Source: Spirochaetae bacterium HGW-Spirochaetae-5
Lineage (GTDB): Bacteria; Spirochaetota; UBA4802; UBA5550
NCBI GenBank assembly: GCA_002839285.1
Contig: PGXT01000054.1
Coordinates: 15,596 to 58,448, forward strand
DNA length: 42,853 nt
Reading direction: 5' to 3'
The notes beneath the pieces are model-generated. The model had not been told where the DNA came from. It did not search any database and was given only the letters and a program-made list of their open reading frames with translations. The translations under genes were made by a program, and so were the position numbers. Of this stretch, positions 34,260-42,853 are shown piece by piece (positions within the stretch are counted from its first letter, which is position 1; every line of letters begins with the position of its first letter).

Positions 34260-36134
34260 ATGGATAGTATGAAAAAAATAATAACCGGTTTACTCCTTTC
34301 TTCTTTCATCTGCATCGCTCTTCCCGTTTCTGCTCTGGATAGACCGGTTGAAGAAGTTACCGCATATAATACTACAGGTAAAATTACCGTATATCCCGGT
34401 GAAAAATTTTTCGCTGTAATTGCCGTGGGGATTCCCGATGATTCATATATTTATGCAAATCCCAAAGGGAAAGGTATAGGGAAAGCCACTGAGATAGTAT
34501 TTGAAGAAATAAAGTATATTAAATCTTCTGAGGTCCGCTATCCCGAAGGTGAAAGTTATCTTGCAAAGGGTGATACCGATCCTGTAAACAGGTACACGAA
34601 GATTGTACGGTTTCCGGCAGCTTTTACTCTAAGTGATAAAATTTTACCGGGAGATTATTCGATCAACGCCAATATGTCCGCTCTTTTATGTACTGACGAT
34701 TCATGTCTCCCTGTCGAAAGAACCGTCAGTATACCCTTCAGCGTAAAGAGAGGTAAAGGGAGTCCCTCTTCATTGAAAATGAATCATATGAGTGAATTTC
34801 TATCTCTGAAGAGAAGTACCCCCTCAGTTATTTCTGCCGATGTTAAAGGTGCCGGGATTACCGGATCCGGTGAAGATTCAGGAATTCCTGAAAGTATCGA
34901 ATTTACTCCGCAGTATCCAGAAGGGGAGATTACAGGTATTTTCAAAGCTATACTTTTTGGTCTTATAGCAGGATTTATCCTTAACTTTATGCCCTGCGTA
35001 CTCCCAGTTGTCAGTCTTAAAATAATGTCATTTGTTATGAATGCCGGAGAGAACAGGAGAGTTATTGTCACCCAGGGCTTTCTCTTCTCTGCAGGTATTC
35101 TTGTAAGTTTTCTTATTCTGGCTGTACTTGCCGCAGTCTTCGGATATCAATGGGGTGCCCTGTTTCAGAATCGGTTTTTTCTTATTATTATGACCTCTTT
35201 TATTTTTGCAATGGCTTTATCGCTCTTCGGGGTTTTTACCTTCAATATACCTTTCATGGCCGGGAGAGCAGTTTCAAGAACAAGAGGGATCTATTCAGAT
35301 GCTTTTATTAAAGGGATAGCGGCTACACTTCTGGCAACTCCCTGCAGCGGGCCCTTCCTCGGAGGGACTCTGGCATGGACACTGACCAGACCGCCCGGTG
35401 TTATCTTTGTTATATTTGTATCTGTTGGTATAGGGATGGCTCTACCTTATATGCTCCTTGCTCTGAATCCTTCGTTGCTCCGTTTTGTACCGAAGCCGGG
35501 AGTATGGATGAACAATTTTGAAAAAGCAATGGGATTTCTTCTAATGTTTACTGTTGTTTATCTTCTTGGAATTCTTGACGGTTCCGGACGGATGGGGCTG
35601 ATTCTTTTTCTTCTGTTTTTGTCTGTGGGGTTGTGGCAGTTCGGAGAATTCGGTTCGATTGTTTCCGCAAAATGGAAAAGGATTCTATCATTCATTATAT
35701 TACTGCTAATTGCAGCAGCAGGATACGGTTTGTCTTTTAATTATTTTTATAAAGATAAAGTCTTATCCTACGAAAAAATCGATTTCAGTACAGATAGAAT
35801 TTTACAGAACCGGGATAAGGGTATAATTACAGTTCTTGAATATACTGCCGACTGGTGTCCGAATTGTTCACTTGTTGAAAAGCTGGCGCTTCAGAGCGAT
35901 GAAGTTCAGAGACTCTTTGCAAAAGATAACATCGAGTTTATGGTAGCAGACTTAACCGTTAGAAATCCTCAGGCTGAGTCGCTCATGGCAAGACTGGGGA
36001 GCAGATCGATCCCCCTCCTTGTTGTTTTCCCTCCTGGATCAGGTTTTAATTCTCCATTATGCCTGCGGGATATTTATTCATCAGAAGATGTAGTTTCTGC
36101 TGTGGAAAGGGCTGTAAAATTTCTAAAGAAATAG
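34260..36134 (+). CDS. dsbD: Thiol:disulfide interchange protein DsbD-like
   Basis: 624 residues. Signal segment (about 1-25), then a periplasmic DsbD-N/DsbC-like domain (about 30-165) with the cysteine pair in LLCTDDSCLPVE. A membrane domain (about 225-495) follows with the redox cysteines C246 in NFMPCVLPVVSLK and C362 in TPCSGPF. Last is a C-terminal thioredoxin domain with ADWCPNC (C533/C536). Electrons pass from cytoplasmic thioredoxin through the membrane cysteines to the periplasm. This is the standard three-module DsbD order and length. TTGACT at 34183 may be a -35 box, with TATAAT 12 bp away, too close for a normal promoter. The HAD gene follows after ten bases. Confidence 0.95.
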   Translation: MDSMKKIITGLLLSSFICIALPVSALDRPVEEVTAYNTTGKITVYPGEKFFAVIAVGIPDDSYIYANPKGKGIGKATEIVFEEIKYIKSSEVRYPEGESYLAKGDTDPVNRYTKIVRFPAAFTLSDKILPGDYSINANMSALLCTDDSCLPVERTVSIPFSVKRGKGSPSSLKMNHMSEFLSLKRSTPSVISADVKGAGITGSGEDSGIPESIEFTPQYPEGEITGIFKAILFGLIAGFILNFMPCVLPVVSLKIMSFVMNAGENRRVIVTQGFLFSAGILVSFLILAVLAAVFGYQWGALFQNRFFLIIMTSFIFAMALSLFGVFTFNIPFMAGRAVSRTRGIYSDAFIKGIAATLLATPCSGPFLGGTLAWTLTRPPGVIFVIFVSVGIGMALPYMLLALNPSLLRFVPKPGVWMNNFEKAMGFLLMFTVVYLLGILDGSGRMGLILFLLFLSVGLWQFGEFGSIVSAKWKRILSFIILLLIAAAGYGLSFNYFYKDKVLSYEKIDFSTDRILQNRDKGIITVLEYTADWCPNCSLVEKLALQSDEVQRLFAKDNIEFMVADLTVRNPQAESLMARLGSRSIPLLVVFPPGSGFNSPLCLRDIYSSEDVVSAVERAVKFLKK

Positions 36135-36144
36135 GGGGTGTTAT

Positions 36145-36975
36145 ATGGTTCATAATAATGTACTTCCTGATGATTTAAGTAATCAGAAAGCATTTTTTAT
36201 AGATATGGACGGGGTCATAAATAAGGGGAATCATCTTATTCCAGGCGCGGCTGAGTTTGTGGAAAAACTTAAAGCCGGGAATTATAAGTTTCTGTTTATC
36301 ACAAATAATTCATACTTTACCCCCGAGGAGCTGCGTGACCGTCTTGCCGATCTCGGTATAGTCGTAGAACCGGAGCATTTTTACACATCGGCCATGGCCA
36401 CGGCAAGATTTCTTAAATATCAGAGGAAGAGTTTCAGTGCATATGTTATCGGCGGGAAGGGGCTGAAGAAAGAGCTTGAAGCTGTGGGGGTTACTCTTAC
36501 TAATAATAAGCCTGACTATGTAATAGTAGGTGAAACAGAGGAGTATGATTACGGTAAGATAATTGAAGCTACTTTTCTTATTGAAGAGGGGGCAAAATTT
36601 ATAGCTACCAATCCCGATATTACAGGGCCGACTCCACGGGGGCCTGTTCCTGCGTGCGGAGCTCTTGTTGCCCCTATTGAAAAGGTTACGGGAGTGAAGG
36701 CTTATTTTCTCGGTAAACCGAATCCTGCCATGATGTACTGGGCCAGAAAAAGACTGAAGGTTCACACGATGAACTCATTCATGATCGGCGACAGGATGGA
36801 TACGGATATTGTCGGCGGACTTGAAGCTGGGATGACATGCTGTCTTGTCCTTTCAGGAGTTACCACACTTGAGATAATGAATAAATATCCTTATCAGCCC
36901 GATTATATTTTTAATTCAATAGCGGATATCGATCCCGATAATATAATTTCCCGATGGGATATGAAGAAGGGGTAA
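36145..36975 (+). CDS. HAD-IIA phosphatase, NagD/p-nitrophenylphosphatase-like
   Basis: 276 residues. HAD motifs: FFIDMDGVINKG (motif I), FITNNS (motif II), a lysine in FLGKPNPAMMYWA (motif III) and GDRMDTDIVGG (motif IV). The large type-C2a cap between motifs II and III is the NagD/phosphoglycolate-phosphatase-like type. Substrates in the family include UMP, phosphoglycolate and sugar phosphates; none can be assigned here. The start is well supported by GGGGGTG just upstream of the ATG. It is probably co-transcribed with dsbD, without an evident functional link. Confidence 0.92.
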   Translation: MVHNNVLPDDLSNQKAFFIDMDGVINKGNHLIPGAAEFVEKLKAGNYKFLFITNNSYFTPEELRDRLADLGIVVEPEHFYTSAMATARFLKYQRKSFSAYVIGGKGLKKELEAVGVTLTNNKPDYVIVGETEEYDYGKIIEATFLIEEGAKFIATNPDITGPTPRGPVPACGALVAPIEKVTGVKAYFLGKPNPAMMYWARKRLKVHTMNSFMIGDRMDTDIVGGLEAGMTCCLVLSGVTTLEIMNKYPYQPDYIFNSIADIDPDNIISRWDMKKG

Positions 36976-36988
36976 ATTTTTCAGGAGC

Positions 36989-37291
36989 TAAGTCCCCGCA
37001 CCCCGGTCCTTGGCAAAGCAAATTCATTGCCAAGGACCGGGATGCGGGGCAATGTCATTAAGTTAAGAGATTTGGAAATCCCGGAACTTTACACATAGCC
37101 CCCTAAATCCCCCGGAGGGGGACTTAAAAGACATTTGTTTTAAAAAAAATTATGTTAAAATTAATGAATTTTGCGATATTGTTTTAAAGTCCCCCTCCGG
37201 GGGATTTAGGGGGCCGGGCATTTGATGCTGCAAAATGATGTATGACGAATTTAGAATCTCTTAACTTAATGACATTGGGTGCGGGGGCTTA
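36989..37291. repeat. 303-bp nested inverted-repeat element
   Basis: Outer arms: TAAGTCCCCGCACCCC and AATGTCATTAAGTTAAGAGA (left, to 37072) against the complementary TCTCTTAACTTAATGACATT and GGGTGCGGGGGCTTA (right, 37255-37291). Inner arms: a perfect 28-bp inverted repeat, 37098-37125 against 37187-37214 (GCCCCCTAAATCCCCC...). The left arm alone carries an extra 23-bp-stem hairpin (36994-37016 with 37027-37049, one mismatch), as if one palindrome was inserted into another. It encodes nothing. It fills most of the gap between the NagD-like and hisE genes; the remaining 130 bp before hisE are AT-rich with a TTGACT at about 37370. Confidence 0.85.
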
Positions 37292-37443
37292 GGTAGAGTG
37301 AATATCATTATTACCACCAAAAAATGAGTATTTACTAATTATAAAACAGTCTTCGAACATTAAATCTTGACTAAAATAAAATTGATTTTAATCTCGCCCC
37401 GTAGAGTTTAAATTGAAATGTGAAGCTGCAGAAAAGGAATTAT

Positions 37444-37776
37444 ATGAATAACGATATTTTTAAAAGATTATTTGAAGTCATTGGTGAACGGAAAAAAGCC
37501 TCCCCTGAAAGTTCCTATGTGGCTAAACTGATGCATCGCGGAACTGAAAAAATCAACAGCAAAATAACAGAAGAGGCCGGAGAGGTCTGCGAAGCTGCCC
37601 TGGAAGATGATAAAGAGCACCTCGTTTATGAAATATGTGATCTCCTGTTCCATACTTTTGTACTTGCTTCACATAAAGATATAGTAATAGATGATATAAA
37701 GGCAGAATTTGAAAGACGGTTCGGAACAAGCGGACTTGCAGAGAAAGCCGGGAGAGATAAAAATGAATCTGAATGA
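37444..37776 (+). CDS. hisE: Phosphoribosyl-ATP pyrophosphatase
   Basis: 110 residues. HisE hydrolyses phosphoribosyl-ATP to phosphoribosyl-AMP, step two of histidine synthesis. Family signature: SYVAKLMHRGTEKINSKI, then EEAGEVCEAALEDDKEHLVYE and CDLLFHTFVLA, the all-alpha MazG-like fold with acidic metal-binding residues. The frame opens at a GTG at 37420, but ATG 37444 has AGGA at ideal spacing. It overlaps the hisG start by 14 bases and is a stand-alone HisE, not fused to HisI. Confidence 0.93.
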   Translation: MNNDIFKRLFEVIGERKKASPESSYVAKLMHRGTEKINSKITEEAGEVCEAALEDDKEHLVYEICDLLFHTFVLASHKDIVIDDIKAEFERRFGTSGLAEKAGRDKNESE

Positions 37777-38563
37777 AACTGATAGAATAAAATTCGCCCT
37801 TCCATCGAAGGGGCGCCTTAAAGACCCTACAATTGAACTGCTTAAAAAAGCCGGATTCAAGTTCAGGGCAACGGGTCGGAATCTTTACGCCACGTGCACC
37901 AACTATGACATTGTATTTATATTTGTAAGAGCTGACGATATCCCCGTGCTGGTTGAATCCGGAGTTATTGATCTTGGAATTACAGGAAGTGATTTAATTA
38001 TCGAAAGAAAAGCTCAAGTTGCAGAGATTCTACCCCTGGGTTATGGTCAGTGCCGGCTGTGTGTAGCAGTAAAGGAAGGATTTGAAAATGAGAGCCTTGA
38101 TTCCCTGAAGGGGAAAAATATTGCCACATCATTCCCGGTTATGACGCATGATTATTTTAAAAGAAACAATGTAGATGTCAACTGCATAGAAATGAACGGA
38201 TCTGTCGAGATAATGATTTTAAAGGTTTTCAAAGAGATCGGAGTTTATGAAACAACTCTTATCACAAAAAGAGAACTGGCCGATGACGAAAGAATTGTCA
38301 GAATAAAAAGAAGAATAGAAGGTGTGCTTGTAGCAAACCAGTACAGCATGCTTGAGTATAATATCAAAGAGAGTCTGCTTAAAAACGCGGAAAAGATCAC
38401 CCCCGGATTTAATTCCCCCACAATTTCAAGTCTCGATAAGGACGACTGGCTTTCTGTAAAAGTTATGGTTAAAAAATCCGAAGTGGTTCTTGTAATGGAT
38501 AAACTCGAAGCATTGGGAGCCACGGCAATAATTGAAACAGAGATAGTGAACTGCAGGCTGTAG
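37763..38563 (+). CDS. hisG: ATP phosphoribosyltransferase HisG (long form) lacking the PRPP-binding loop
   Basis: 266 residues from the ATG at 37763 (GGGAGAG upstream); long-form HisG is usually 284-300. The N-terminal half is normal (KFALPSKGRLKDPTIELL, GSDLIIERKAQVAEILPLGYGQCRL, IATSFPVMTHDYFKRN, CIEMNGSVEI), as is the C-terminal ACT-like regulatory domain (SVKVMVKKSEVVLVMDKLEA). Between EMNGSVEI (ending about residue 150) and MILKVFKEIG the expected segment AP..GLAD.I.D.V.TG.TL..N, which binds the PRPP phosphate, is missing: about 22-26 residues gone in frame at 38210-38218. As written the enzyme should be inactive. Operon with hisE. Confidence 0.85.
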   Translation: MNLNETDRIKFALPSKGRLKDPTIELLKKAGFKFRATGRNLYATCTNYDIVFIFVRADDIPVLVESGVIDLGITGSDLIIERKAQVAEILPLGYGQCRLCVAVKEGFENESLDSLKGKNIATSFPVMTHDYFKRNNVDVNCIEMNGSVEIMILKVFKEIGVYETTLITKRELADDERIVRIKRRIEGVLVANQYSMLEYNIKESLLKNAEKITPGFNSPTISSLDKDDWLSVKVMVKKSEVVLVMDKLEALGATAIIETEIVNCRL

Positions 38564-38610
38564 TACTCTGACCGTATGATTTTGAGTCAATAGTTTATCA
38601 GCTATAAACT

Positions 38611-38730
38611 TAAAATCCCCCCGTTTCGCTTTGCTCAACATCCCCCTTTAATAAAGGGGGTTATGAAATCCCGAAAGTCAAAACCCTCTTTATTAAAGAG
38701 GGTAACCATAGGCCGGGAGATTTTCCGGTA
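38611..38730. repeat. Convergent-gap double-hairpin element (family B, copy 2)
   Basis: Stems CCCCCTTTAATAAAGGGGG (38642-38660) and ACCCTCTTTATTAAAGAGGG (38683-38702). Flanking AAAATCCCCCCGTTTCGCTT and GGCCGGGAGATTTTCCGG match the 8005-8150 element in inverted orientation. It lies between the converging hisG gene and the peptide-modification operon, as expected for a bidirectional terminator. Confidence 0.7.
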
Positions 38731-38792
38731 TTATCTAAAAAACTATTTGATGAGAAATCATCCTGTCTAAGCAGCAGTATACATACATACTT

Positions 38793-39326
38793 CTACAAAT
38801 CCATAGAAAATTTATCTCCACCGGAGGATGATTTAATCTGAAGAAATTTTAAATCTCCCCCGCAGGTGGGGCATTTCTGAACATCATCTCTTACCGGATA
38901 GTCGTTTCCGCAGAAAGGACATTTGTTCTGTACATATTTAAACTGAAACTCCGGGAAAATATAAAATGTTTCCCCGTCTCTCTGATCGGTCTTTGCAATT
39001 CTCTTTTTAATCATATCATTGATTTCATATATGACAATATCATTCCAGCCGGTTTCACCTTTTATGATATCTTTTGTGATTTCTCCGTGATGTTTTGCCG
39101 CGGCTTTCAATATTGCTTCACGTATAAGCTCTGGTCTCAGCACCATCCCTGAGCGGAACACTTTAAAACCGGAAATCAGCAAAGGGAGACCGGAGACGAA
39201 AAAAATTCCCGCTGCAATAAGACGTGAAGTCATCCCGGAGGCTGCTATTACAAAGAGCAGACCCATCAGCTCGGATACAAGTCCTGTAATAATCATGGCT
39301 GAACCTGTAATTATTTTAAAGGCCAT
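38793..39326 (-). CDS. Membrane-anchored zinc-ribbon protein (last gene of the putative RiPP operon)
   Basis: 177 residues. Two membrane spans occupy about 6-30 (TGSAMIITGLVSELMGLLF) and 34-54 (SRLIAAGIFFVSGLPLLISGF). A compact helical region follows (about 65-115, IREAILKAAAKHHGEITKDI) that looks like a winged-helix or PCI-like segment, then a C-terminal zinc ribbon, KCPFCGNDYP...KCPTCGGDLKF (about 135-161, two CxxC pairs). The ATG follows the upstream stop by one base, with AGGAG 11 bases before. The role is unknown; operon position suggests it serves the cysteine-repeat protein or its maturase. Confidence 0.75.
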   Translation of the reverse strand: MAFKIITGSAMIITGLVSELMGLLFVIAASGMTSRLIAAGIFFVSGLPLLISGFKVFRSGMVLRPELIREAILKAAAKHHGEITKDIIKGETGWNDIVIYEINDMIKKRIAKTDQRDGETFYIFPEFQFKYVQNKCPFCGNDYPVRDDVQKCPTCGGDLKFLQIKSSSGGDKFSMDL

Positions 39327-39327
39327 A

Positions 39328-40593
39328 TTACCACTGCTCCTTTGTTCTTTTATTCAGTTCATCACCCATGGCTGTAAAATAAGTTTCAATATTCTTTATT
39401 GTAAAAAGAGTTTCGGTCTCTTTTAACATCTTTGAAGCGAACTCAGCAGGATGAATACCTGAAAAATCGGTTTCCAGTTTTTTTTCAAGCTCTTTCAGGT
39501 GTCCGGCAAACTTCAATGATATTTCCGGAACGTCAATTTTTAACGTCGGGAGTTCTGAATAGGTATCTTCTGTTTTTTTTACATCTTTAACGCTTTTCAG
39601 GAAAGTGTTCATCCCTTCCTTTATTCCGCGGATCAGTGCAATGAAAGAGACCGATTGCTTAATCCCCTCAGTAAGCGACCGGAAGACTCTGTTTAGTTCA
39701 CCGGTTTCTATAAGACTACCCTCTATATCTTTCCTGTTATCGGAAAAGGGCTCTCCGCAGAAATCGCAGAAATAGATGTTCTTTTCATTTTTTGAAAAAC
39801 ACTTTCTGCATTTACCGGAACGTTTTGAATCCGATCCGGTAAAGAGAAACTTCTCATCTCCATGCAGTACCGCAAGAGTGTTTGAAAAGGCCGCTTTCTT
39901 TATAAGAATATCCATATCTGTTGTAAGATTCTGAATTTTTTCAGTAATCATGGAAAACTCGGTGTAAAGATTGTTCCAGTGATCACGGGCATTGCTGTCA
40001 AGTTCAAGGAGTTCTTTCTCTCTGGTTCCCCACTTTGTACGTACAGCTTCTATTGCAGAAAGGAGAGCATCTCTTTTTTTTAAAATAACTTCTTTTTCAT
40101 CTTCAATTTTTTTCATATTAAAAAAATTAGTTATAAATCCGAAACCTGTACTCAGCTCATCAATTTTCCTGTTGAAAACCGATATTTCATCTTCAAGAAG
40201 ATTTATCTCTGCTTTTATTTTCTCCTCTTTTTTATCAAGATCACTGTTTGTTTTTTTAAGGCTGGCGAAGTATGATAAACTGTTTTTACTTAATCCTTTA
40301 ATTTCACTATCGAGTTTTCCCTTCTGCTCTTCAAGTTTTATCAGATTCTGTTTAAATTTTTTCCCCTGCTCTATCAGGCTCTCTTTGTAAAGGTCTCTCA
40401 CTTCCTTCGGGAATTTTTCAGGATCTTTGAAAAACTCATCCTGAAGAAATTCAATCTCCGCTGTACGGACCTTGATTACATTATTGAAGTTGGTGTTAAA
40501 GTGAGCCTGGATTCTGTTCAGTTTTTCATCTATCTCTGATGCAGTTAAGATAGAAGTTTCAATAAACTCCACCATCCCCTTAAGAGTTCCCAT
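39328..40593 (-). CDS. Coiled-coil protein with central zinc ribbon
   Basis: 421 residues, no signal peptide or membrane span. Residues about 1-250 are strongly helical and rich in Lys/Glu (two long coiled-coil stretches, about 75-155 and 165-235, separated by a GFGFITNFFNM loop). A zinc ribbon follows: GKCRKCFSKNEKNIYFCDFCGEPF (about 263-286, two CxxC). The C-terminal 130 residues are helical again. No catalytic motif. Its ATG overlaps the stop of the radical SAM gene (TAATG), so the two are translationally coupled. A scaffold or partner for the modification complex is an inference from position only. Confidence 0.75.
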   Translation of the reverse strand: MGTLKGMVEFIETSILTASEIDEKLNRIQAHFNTNFNNVIKVRTAEIEFLQDEFFKDPEKFPKEVRDLYKESLIEQGKKFKQNLIKLEEQKGKLDSEIKGLSKNSLSYFASLKKTNSDLDKKEEKIKAEINLLEDEISVFNRKIDELSTGFGFITNFFNMKKIEDEKEVILKKRDALLSAIEAVRTKWGTREKELLELDSNARDHWNNLYTEFSMITEKIQNLTTDMDILIKKAAFSNTLAVLHGDEKFLFTGSDSKRSGKCRKCFSKNEKNIYFCDFCGEPFSDNRKDIEGSLIETGELNRVFRSLTEGIKQSVSFIALIRGIKEGMNTFLKSVKDVKKTEDTYSELPTLKIDVPEISLKFAGHLKELEKKLETDFSGIHPAEFASKMLKETETLFTIKNIETYFTAMGDELNKRTKEQW

Positions 40594-41914
40594 TATAATA
40601 CCTCCCCTGATGGTTCGACTCCATCGACACCCCTGGTTTTTAGACGCAATCTATTTTCAAGAGACCAGATGAAATTACCTGATCCTGCATTTTCCCAGTA
40701 GAGCGGACAGGCTCCCTTGCAGAGAATCTTCATGCTGCACTTTTTACAAACCGGCGGGATATATCTCTTCTCTCTGAAGTAGAGAGCTTCGTCGCTGTTC
40801 CATATTGAACTAAACGAACTCTTCAGCAGATTCCCTATCCCTTTGCTGTAGCTTGAACATGGGAGAACATCCCCGGCAGGGTTAATCGATAAGAGACCGG
40901 ATACGCAGGCGCATGACTTTGATCCGAGATTGTGATCTACCGGATTAAACATGCAGTATGGAGTAGGTGAATACCAGACGAATTTTATTCCGGTCTCTTC
41001 GCTGTATTTCAGTACAGGTTCGATGATAGATGAGATGGATGAGTATCCGATGTTTACATTCTCATTATCTTTTGCTATCCCCGTTGCGATAATCATATTC
41101 ATGGAGAGGTATTTTGCATCGAATTCATTTTTTACAAATTTTACAAGGGGGATAAGGTGATCTCTGTTCCATCTGCATATTGTAGTATTGGTGTGGGTAT
41201 GTATCCCGGCCTGTTTAAGATTATGTATTGCAGCAACGGTATTTTTGTACGCGCTGCTGTTCCCGGTTATACGGTTATGAAGAAGTTCATCGTGTGATTC
41301 AAGGCTGACCTGTGCGGAATGAAGTCCAGCTCCGGCAAATTTTTTTACAAGCTCTTTATCCGATGATCTTACTCCGTTGGTTATCAGGTTTGTTCTCATC
41401 CCTTTTTTTACTGCGTATTCTATAAGTTCAGGGAGGTCATTCCGCTTTTATCTATAATCAGCTTTATCTGGTCAACTGTCATCTCTTTGAAGTCATCACC
41501 GCGGTAAGGGCTTGAGGCGTAGCAGAAGTCGCATCTGTTCTGGCACTTATATGTAACTGCAATCTCCGAGAGAACAGGAAATTTTATACTGTCGGGATTA
41601 TAATCGATTACAGATATATTTGTGGCTGATTTGTAATCATCGTTCATAACTGCACTTAACGATTTTACTATTCCAGTGAGATCATTTAATATAACATTTT
41701 TAGCTGTACCATATTTACTGTTTATGTAATCGACTGTCACGGCTGCTCCTGCTTTTTTCTCATAGAGAGAGTAAAGCATCTCAAAACCGGTACTGTTCAG
41801 ATGCTGAATTCTGTCGGGTCTGATAATCAGCAGGGAATCCTCCTGACGCAGATAAATGACCTCCGATGTTCCGGCTACGAAAGAGTCTATTTCACGTAAA
41901 ATTTCACTATTCAT
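40593..41914 (-). pseudogene. PqqD-like/radical SAM/SPASM peptide maturase, interrupted at the GGEP region
   Basis: Frame one (41914 to 41420) starts MNSEILREIDSF, with AGGA eight bases upstream. It contains a PqqD-like RiPP recognition domain (about 15-100: VIYLRQEDSLLIIRPDRIQH and LNSTGFEMLYSL) and the radical SAM cluster motif CQNRCDFC. It stops shortly after MTVDQIKLIIDKSGMTSLNL. Frame two (about 41441 to 40593) resumes with NDLPELIEYAVKKGMRTNLI and continues through the TIM-barrel to a complete SPASM domain (C-x-C, then CSSYSKGIGN..., and CKKCSMKILCKGAC near the end). The GGEP motif that should join them is absent, and the frame shifts. Both frames read sensibly over the junction 41420-41442, as after deletion between similar short sequences. 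Couples to the downstream coiled-coil gene. Confidence 0.85.
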
Positions 41915-41923
41915 GTTTATATC

Positions 41924-42853
41924 CTAAAAGCTCGACACGCAGGCAGAGTGACAGGCCGAGTGGCAAGCCGAGTGTACACATGCCGAGTGGCAAGCCGAAT
42001 GGCACGCCGAGTGTACACATGCAGAGTGACAGGCCGAATGGCATGCCGAGTGACATGCATCGTAACTGAATGATGAAATGTTCTCTATACCCGATGCCGC
42101 AGCGGATTCCGCAGCCTTGATGTCGGGCTGTTTGAAAAGAGATTCCACATTTTCAACTATTGAGGCTGAAAAATTTTCCACATTTTCAACTATACCTTCG
42201 GCAAAATCTTTTAAGCCCTCCGCGGCAGATCCCCCCTGATCTGCAATTTTACTGAAAAAACCTGCGGGATCACCGGGGACAGGTGAAGCGGGAATAATAC
42301 TTCCGGCATATTTTTCCGGATCTGAAGTAAATGTATCATTGATAATAATCCATCCGGAATTGCCGCTGAAATAATCTTTCCGTTTATCAGGAGAGGATGC
42401 TGTAAAATCCCTCCAGTGCCGGTCAATTTTCTCTGTATAAAGTTCAGCCGTTTTCTCAATATCTCCTTTCCAGATTTTTGACTGAAGTGATTTCCCTGTG
42501 CTTTTAAGTATCAGAGGTATTTTTCTTTTATCCAGTGTGCCGTCAGAGGCAATGGATAATATAAACTGTTTTTCGTAAGGAGTAAGATCCTCCCCTTCAG
42601 ATTTGATAACGGCAACCTGAAGCGGATTGCGGTTAAGAATATCTATGTACCCCCTGTTGAACAAATCCATTACTATAAGTGCTATACTTTTTGACGGTTT
42701 GTTTAGAAACATTGCGGCTTCAACAGGATTTAGATTTTCTATTATCTCACCTGTTCTGAAGGTCTCTATCTGTATCTCCGGCGCTATATATTCAGGTTTC
42801 TTTTCGAAGCGTTTTTTAATAGATGGGTGAATTTTCAGAATCATCAGCAGAAG
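41924..42853 (-). CDS. Cysteine-repeat protein, candidate modified substrate (5' end beyond window)
   Basis: At least 306 residues from the ATG at 42844; the frame remains open to the window edge (LLL before it), so the true start is probably upstream, after a membrane segment. The N-terminal part resembles the cytoplasmic domain of DUF2207/TIGR04222-type membrane proteins: LNPVEAAMFLNKPSKSIALI, VMDLFNRGYIDI, EDLTPYEKQFILSI. A low-complexity linker with two copies of (S/A)IVENVE(S/N) follows. The tail (about 262-306) is DAC, then three times HSACHSACHSACV, then SSF: ten Cys, nine HSAC units. Its stop codon overlaps the ribosome site of the radical SAM gene. TIGR04222-type proteins commonly end in Cys-rich low-complexity tails; modification is inferred from context. 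Confidence 0.8.
   Translation of the reverse strand, partial: LLLMILKIHPSIKKRFEKKPEYIAPEIQIETFRTGEIIENLNPVEAAMFLNKPSKSIALIVMDLFNRGYIDILNRNPLQVAVIKSEGEDLTPYEKQFILSIASDGTLDKRKIPLILKSTGKSLQSKIWKGDIEKTAELYTEKIDRHWRDFTASSPDKRKDYFSGNSGWIIINDTFTSDPEKYAGSIIPASPVPGDPAGFFSKIADQGGSAAEGLKDFAEGIVENVENFSASIVENVESLFKQPDIKAAESAAASGIENISSFSYDACHSACHSACHSACVHSACHSACHSACVHSACHSACHSACVSSF
41936..42061 (-). repeat. HSAC-encoding tandem repeat (three 39-bp blocks)
   Basis: Encodes DAC followed by three identical 13-residue blocks (HSAC, HSAC, HSAC, V). Codons vary at synonymous sites: His CAC/CAT, Ser TCG/TCT, Ala GCA/GCC/GCG/GCT, Cys TGC/TGT. The peptide is perfectly periodic while the DNA is not, which indicates selection on the amino-acid repeat. 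Confidence 0.9.

Follow-up and report, generated by a model that had tools for sequence, protein, structure and literature searches.

We analyzed a window of 42,853 bp, the right-hand 42.9 kb of a 58.4-kb contig in a MAG-like Spirochaetota assembly of 309 contigs. Four genes lie on the minus strand at the contig end, encoding, in order from that end, a tail protein, a radical SAM enzyme, a coiled-coil zinc-ribbon protein and a small membrane zinc-ribbon protein. The tail protein gene (41924..42853) ends in a stop codon at 41924, nine bases ahead of the radical SAM start at 41914; the radical SAM gene shares 1 nt (40593) with the coiled-coil gene, which in turn is separated by a single nucleotide (39327) from the membrane zinc-ribbon gene. 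A sequence-only reading of this locus had described this tight packing, along with three (HSAC)3V blocks at the end of the first protein, and both observations held: the protein ends in ISSFSYDAC(HSAC)3V(HSAC)3V(HSAC)3VSSF, of which the part from (D)AC onward (41927..42061, minus strand) is the tail that we propose as a modification site. No Rfam match was found at 36000-42853.

The tail protein

The window stops where contig C66 stops, which leaves the tail gene 5' truncated; an in-frame ATG at 42844 lies within the protein. Intact tail proteins from five relatives in the window's family have 918 to 1023 aa, and full-length members across lineages have about 550 to 1020 aa, with membrane segments. 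At full length, the window's protein would have about 920 aa and consist of a signal peptide, a large outer domain, membrane helices, a cytoplasmic domain and the tail. Full-length members carry an N-terminal hydrophobic segment, a large domain, one or more hydrophobic segments, positive residues, a domain weakly similar to DUF2207_C and the tail. After the large domain there is a single hydrophobic segment in other lineages, and a double-length one plus another in the window's family; 3 to 6 positive residues follow the last segment in most full-length members. By the positive-inside rule, one or three transmembrane segments followed by positive charges put the tail on the cytoplasmic side in both layouts, a prediction from hydropathy that would place it within reach of a radical SAM enzyme. 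One protein (L014 6655-9726, minus strand, genome G018) exceeds its relatives by about 100 aa and has an insertion in its cytoplasmic domain.

Profile searches related the protein only distantly to DUF2207. The C-terminal model (PF20990 and PF09972 were tested) was seen in 2 of 19 proteins at 22 to 25 bits against a cutoff of 33, the window's protein scoring a subthreshold 22 bits, and the N-terminal model matched the outer domain of 1 of 19 (E = 6.5e-4). The likeness is therefore a weak one in the cytoplasmic domain (≤25 bits) and in one member's outer domain, with scores below the gathering cutoffs where shown, and to our knowledge a CHSA tail with a radical SAM partner has not been described for DUF2207. 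Membership in TIGR04222, suggested earlier, was not borne out (11.3 bits against a cutoff of 43; E = 0.2). An AlphaFold model of the window's cytoplasmic part and tail had a mean pLDDT of 32 and carries no confidence.

The Cys/His array

The window's tail contains 10 Cys and 9 His residues. When it was compared with the tail at locus L009, we counted 30 synonymous and no amino acid changes in 51 codons, while the whole region shared with that locus was 63% identical. Such synonymous-only change argues that the tail is selected at the protein level. The spacing of four residues between cysteines is held almost throughout, across families. Among 177 four-residue units, a count that takes in a separate CYSGC-like pair of the nonwindow lineages, His follows Cys in 160 and Ala precedes Cys in 164, and the position after His is mostly Ser, Asp or Asn. 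Array length is nearly equal in all lineages, unlike that of neutral repeats.

The CYSGC/CFSGC-like pair (RSxxC[YF]xGC[FY]xP) lies about 10 residues ahead of the CHSA array in the nonwindow lineages (L047, L048 and L049 to L059). The motif ACHSAC also turned up in viral contigs. In the three richest (L065, L066 and L068), the matches were other-frame readings of VTQP repeats in phage genes; in L067, they were an other-frame reading of a PVTP-repeat gene; four more contigs had single matches each. The tail peptide had no match in plasmids. Given the predicted cytoplasmic location of the tail, we set aside heme c binding, in which the repeat would be read as CxxxCH-like.

The radical SAM-SPASM enzyme

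The earlier reading had assigned PqqD-like and SPASM domains to the second gene, and profile searches detected both in its relatives. Radical_SAM and SPASM (PF13186) Pfam profiles matched 18 of 18 relatives, and PqqD matched 4 of 18 (best E value, 1.3e-6). A profile of the N-terminal domain, which in the window occupies 41570..41914 (minus strand), hit five PDB chains at E ≤ 10, all of them RREs (TfuB1, PqqD, PqqC/D twice and TbiB1). The CxxxCxxC motif, GGEP and six SPASM cysteines are invariant across the 18 relatives. The final Cys of the canonical seven SPASM cysteines is not conserved, so cluster content may differ; a near-invariant Cys339 lies upstream and may replace it.

The family falls well below the cutoff of every NCBIfam model among the matches listed, where NirJ2, AhbD and PqqE scored best and ACGX and sactipeptide maturases lower. 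The best PDB profile match was SkfB (6efn), followed by PqqE (6c8v). Against plasmids, the best hits listed were 24 to 29% identical, and those with names were PqqE or an unnamed radical SAM protein. With a PqqD-like domain, the core motif and SPASM all found in the relatives, the enzyme is best read as a radical SAM-SPASM protein of the RRE-containing peptide-maturase type.

In the window itself, the frame of this gene is broken. Its 5' part, with the RRE and CxxxCxxC, runs from 41914 to 41420 (minus strand), where it meets a stop codon past a gap, and its 3' part, with the remaining barrel and SPASM, lies in another frame from about 41444 to 40593 (minus strand). Exactly 55 bp are absent, over the segment ...ISFTGGEPTLR that includes GGEP. 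As assembled, the window's own enzyme would be inactive, and we found no second copy of the gene in the genome, so we judged the system on its relatives. The neighboring hisG gene (37763-38563, plus strand) likewise lacks 66 bp, in frame, over the conserved ALNLARAIVDIVETGDSLRDN stretch, which both L009 and the sister species retain. That two such losses lie about 3 kb from each other, close to a contig end, suggests that both gaps are probably assembly errors.

The competing explanation is that the operon is decaying in this genome, with the radical SAM gene a true pseudogene and the system nonfunctional here, which would be compatible with modification elsewhere. The 55-bp deletion and frameshift would fit this. 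So would the sister species (genome G001; L115 6624-7031, minus strand, contig C56), which has the same dsbD-hisI-hisG neighborhood and at the equivalent place lacks the operon except for a remnant of the membrane zinc-ribbon gene, 135 aa long and without its zinc ribbon; this lone truncated remnant leaves room for genuine decay in the genus. Given the parallel loss in hisG, which points to assembly errors near the contig end, and the good conservation of the tail and remaining genes, we regard decay as a minority explanation, with perhaps one chance in a few of being correct.

Partner genes

The coiled-coil protein (39328..40593, minus strand) has four invariant cysteines in two CxxC pairs that form a zinc ribbon. 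Its model is a helical hairpin (pLDDT 65) with no match among PDB folds at E ≤ 0.001, only generic BAR-like coiled coils. Among 393 Spirochaetota genomes, the gene is confined to the six members of the window's family that carry the tail. The small membrane protein (38793..39326, minus strand) has a C-terminal zinc ribbon (Zn_ribbon_3 at 1.6e-4, below the cutoff), is kept in the same six operons and has distant paralogues outside them. In other lineages the partners differ: a membrane protein of about 300 aa is encoded downstream, often with a second one, of about 205 aa, upstream, and neither has a Pfam assignment. The two zinc-ribbon proteins that had been described as partners are thus both present in the window and do not belong to the system in general, and co-occurrence of the tail with this zinc-ribbon pair did not extend past one family. 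Since the zinc ribbons are a lineage-specific addition, the core consists of the tail protein and the radical SAM enzyme.

Distribution and linkage of the gene pair

We searched the 393 genomes for the tail with a degenerate DNA pattern for ACHSACHSAC and used the reversed pattern as a control. The pattern was found in 21 genomes of five families and the control in none. A profile built from 18 of the tail-linked enzymes found the enzyme family in exactly the same 21 genomes, so the proposed co-occurrence of Cys-repeat tail and radical SAM enzyme is complete in this sample. Enzyme scores were 414 to 708 bits, the 414 belonging to the window's own broken copy; below these came a 199-bit fragment and then scores of 182 and lower. 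The fragment, from one of the 21 genomes, is a partial second copy with its downstream partner at a contig end (L120 7571-7945, minus strand, genome G371, contig C3). It lies near transposase-like genes and is possibly a duplicated operon.

Wherever its start could be placed, the radical SAM gene lies directly downstream of the tail gene, at -4 to +21 nt. In one family (f35), 20 of 23 genomes carry the tail and 20 of 23 carry the enzyme; the two mismatches are at contig ends, one inside the enzyme gene and the other past the enzyme's first part beside the tail. Across the 21 genomes and the rest of f35, all 30 tails adjoin an enzyme gene, and no tail homologue without a neighboring radical SAM gene was found. 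Presence is mixed within f1 (6 of 20 genomes) and f50 (2 of 4 sampled genomes). The radical SAM and substrate domains diverge together (r = 0.95), to which shared descent also contributes. Because these families are related by descent, with partly vertical inheritance, the linkage amounts to about five families of support and not 21 independent cases.

Discussion

The genes, their strict co-occurrence and adjacency, the conservation of the tail's amino acids and the presence of RRE, radical SAM and SPASM domains in the relatives are established directly. Strict linkage, the RRE and the repeat together make the tail the most likely substrate of the enzyme, an assignment in which we have good confidence. 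More broadly, and with rather less assurance, we favor the view that the pair is a protein-modification system in which the target of a maturase-type radical SAM enzyme is a Cys/His array that remains part of a membrane protein, on the cytoplasmic side. The sequence leads us to predict a cytoplasmic tail; that the enzyme acts on this tail, by what chemistry and to what end, is inference.

In the mechanism that we propose, the substrate would run from a signal peptide through an outer domain and one or three membrane helices to a cytoplasmic domain, and would end in an array of some ten cysteines four residues apart, in units of Cys-His-Ser/Asn/Asp-Ala. The adjacent enzyme would hold the substrate through its N-terminal PqqD-like domain, and the 5'-deoxyadenosyl radical, with auxiliary iron-sulfur clusters, would then introduce repeated modifications along the array. 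A Cys-centered thioether is the likeliest single chemistry, at somewhat under an even chance, with other oxidation of Cys or His named beside it. The modified array is probably not cleaved. It would remain on the cytoplasmic side and, coupled to the outer domain, would bind metal or be redox active, and the membrane or zinc-ribbon partners particular to each lineage would link it to the rest of the cell. That the array stays attached and has a metal or redox role is less certain than that the tail is the substrate. The fullest form of the proposal, that the enzyme turns the cytoplasmic tail of a receptor-like membrane protein into a covalently modified, built-in metal or redox center, is offered tentatively, as about a one-in-three prospect.

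A different possibility is that the tail is never modified and is a helical Cys-x3-Cys/His-x3-His array that binds zinc, copper, iron-sulfur or heme, while the enzyme acts elsewhere, for example on a small molecule or a partner, within a shared metal or stress operon. Alternating Cys and His at i and i+4 fit metal binding on a helix, zinc-ribbon partners adjoin the pair in one lineage, and the enzyme's nearest named profiles are heme synthesis and PQQ enzymes. However, the enzyme carries an RRE, a peptide-binding domain, and in the phylum sample occurs only together with the tail, both of which favor the tail as its substrate; we therefore think an unmodified array unlikely. Least probable, at roughly one chance in eight, is a true RiPP, in which the large domain is the leader and the tail is a core that, once modified, is cleaved from it and released as a bioactive small molecule: an RRE-radical SAM-SPASM enzyme beside a C-terminal Cys repeat does recall sactipeptides and ranthipeptides, but the "leader" is membrane anchored and several hundred residues long, the array is nearly constant in size and sequence across families, unlike diversifying natural products, and nearly all genomes of one family have the enzyme. 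The earlier RiPP-type reading thus stands insofar as the tail is inseparable from its RRE-radical SAM-SPASM enzyme; in its strict sense, with leader cleavage and export, it is doubtful, since the tail is predicted to be cytoplasmic on an anchored membrane protein and we saw no protease, peptidase or exporter gene shared between the operons. The locus is best read as a RiPP-like system that is not a classical RiPP.

Several known systems resemble parts of this one. TIGR04222 membrane proteins have Cys-rich tails and are encoded beside modifying (MNIO) enzymes (PMC12452194); their tails are predicted to be periplasmic and are rich in Gly and Ser (PMC12452194). This appears to be the closest described arrangement, as both have a C-terminal, low-complexity, Cys-rich tail on a membrane protein and an adjacent gene for a modifying enzyme. 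The present pair differs in its radical SAM-SPASM enzyme, its predicted cytoplasmic tail, its strict CHSA repeat and the absence of a TIGR04222 match, and none of 12 tail-bearing genomes had an MNIO gene (PF05114). ACGX repeats also have Cys every four residues and are linked to a radical SAM-SPASM enzyme. The CHSA pair shares both features with ACGX (TIGR04340) and other systems with Cys at every fourth residue; it is set apart by the enzyme score (91 versus 400 bits for TIGR04340), a large membrane protein in place of a short peptide as substrate and an A-C-H-S repeat. SkfB and related sactipeptide and ranthipeptide maturases combine an RRE, a radical SAM domain and SPASM, the same domain architecture as our enzyme, with 6efn as the best PDB profile match. 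Unlike those systems, this one has no short leader/core layout, a membrane-bound substrate, an unconserved last SPASM Cys and thioethers that are putative. PqqE with PqqD likewise pairs a radical SAM-SPASM enzyme with a PqqD-like domain, but here the two are fused, the Cys-rich substrate is unrelated to PqqA and the score is 116 versus 381 bits. A literature search, conducted mostly without subscription journals, found no paper on this gene pair, none combining DUF2207 or ACGX with radical SAM and no occurrence of the tail motif as a protein sequence.

RRE-bearing radical SAM-SPASM enzymes are known to make small peptide natural products and cofactors. Here, such an enzyme is tied, without exception in the sampled genomes, to a large membrane protein with a Cys/His repeat that has hardly changed in sequence over five families. 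Because the tail is a short repeat that can be separated from the rest, its chemistry is directly testable. The presence of this undescribed gene pair in several spirochete lineages suggests a novel system for protein modification. Should the tail prove to be modified and still attached, RiPP-type chemistry would extend to cofactors of membrane proteins, as opposed to secreted natural products.
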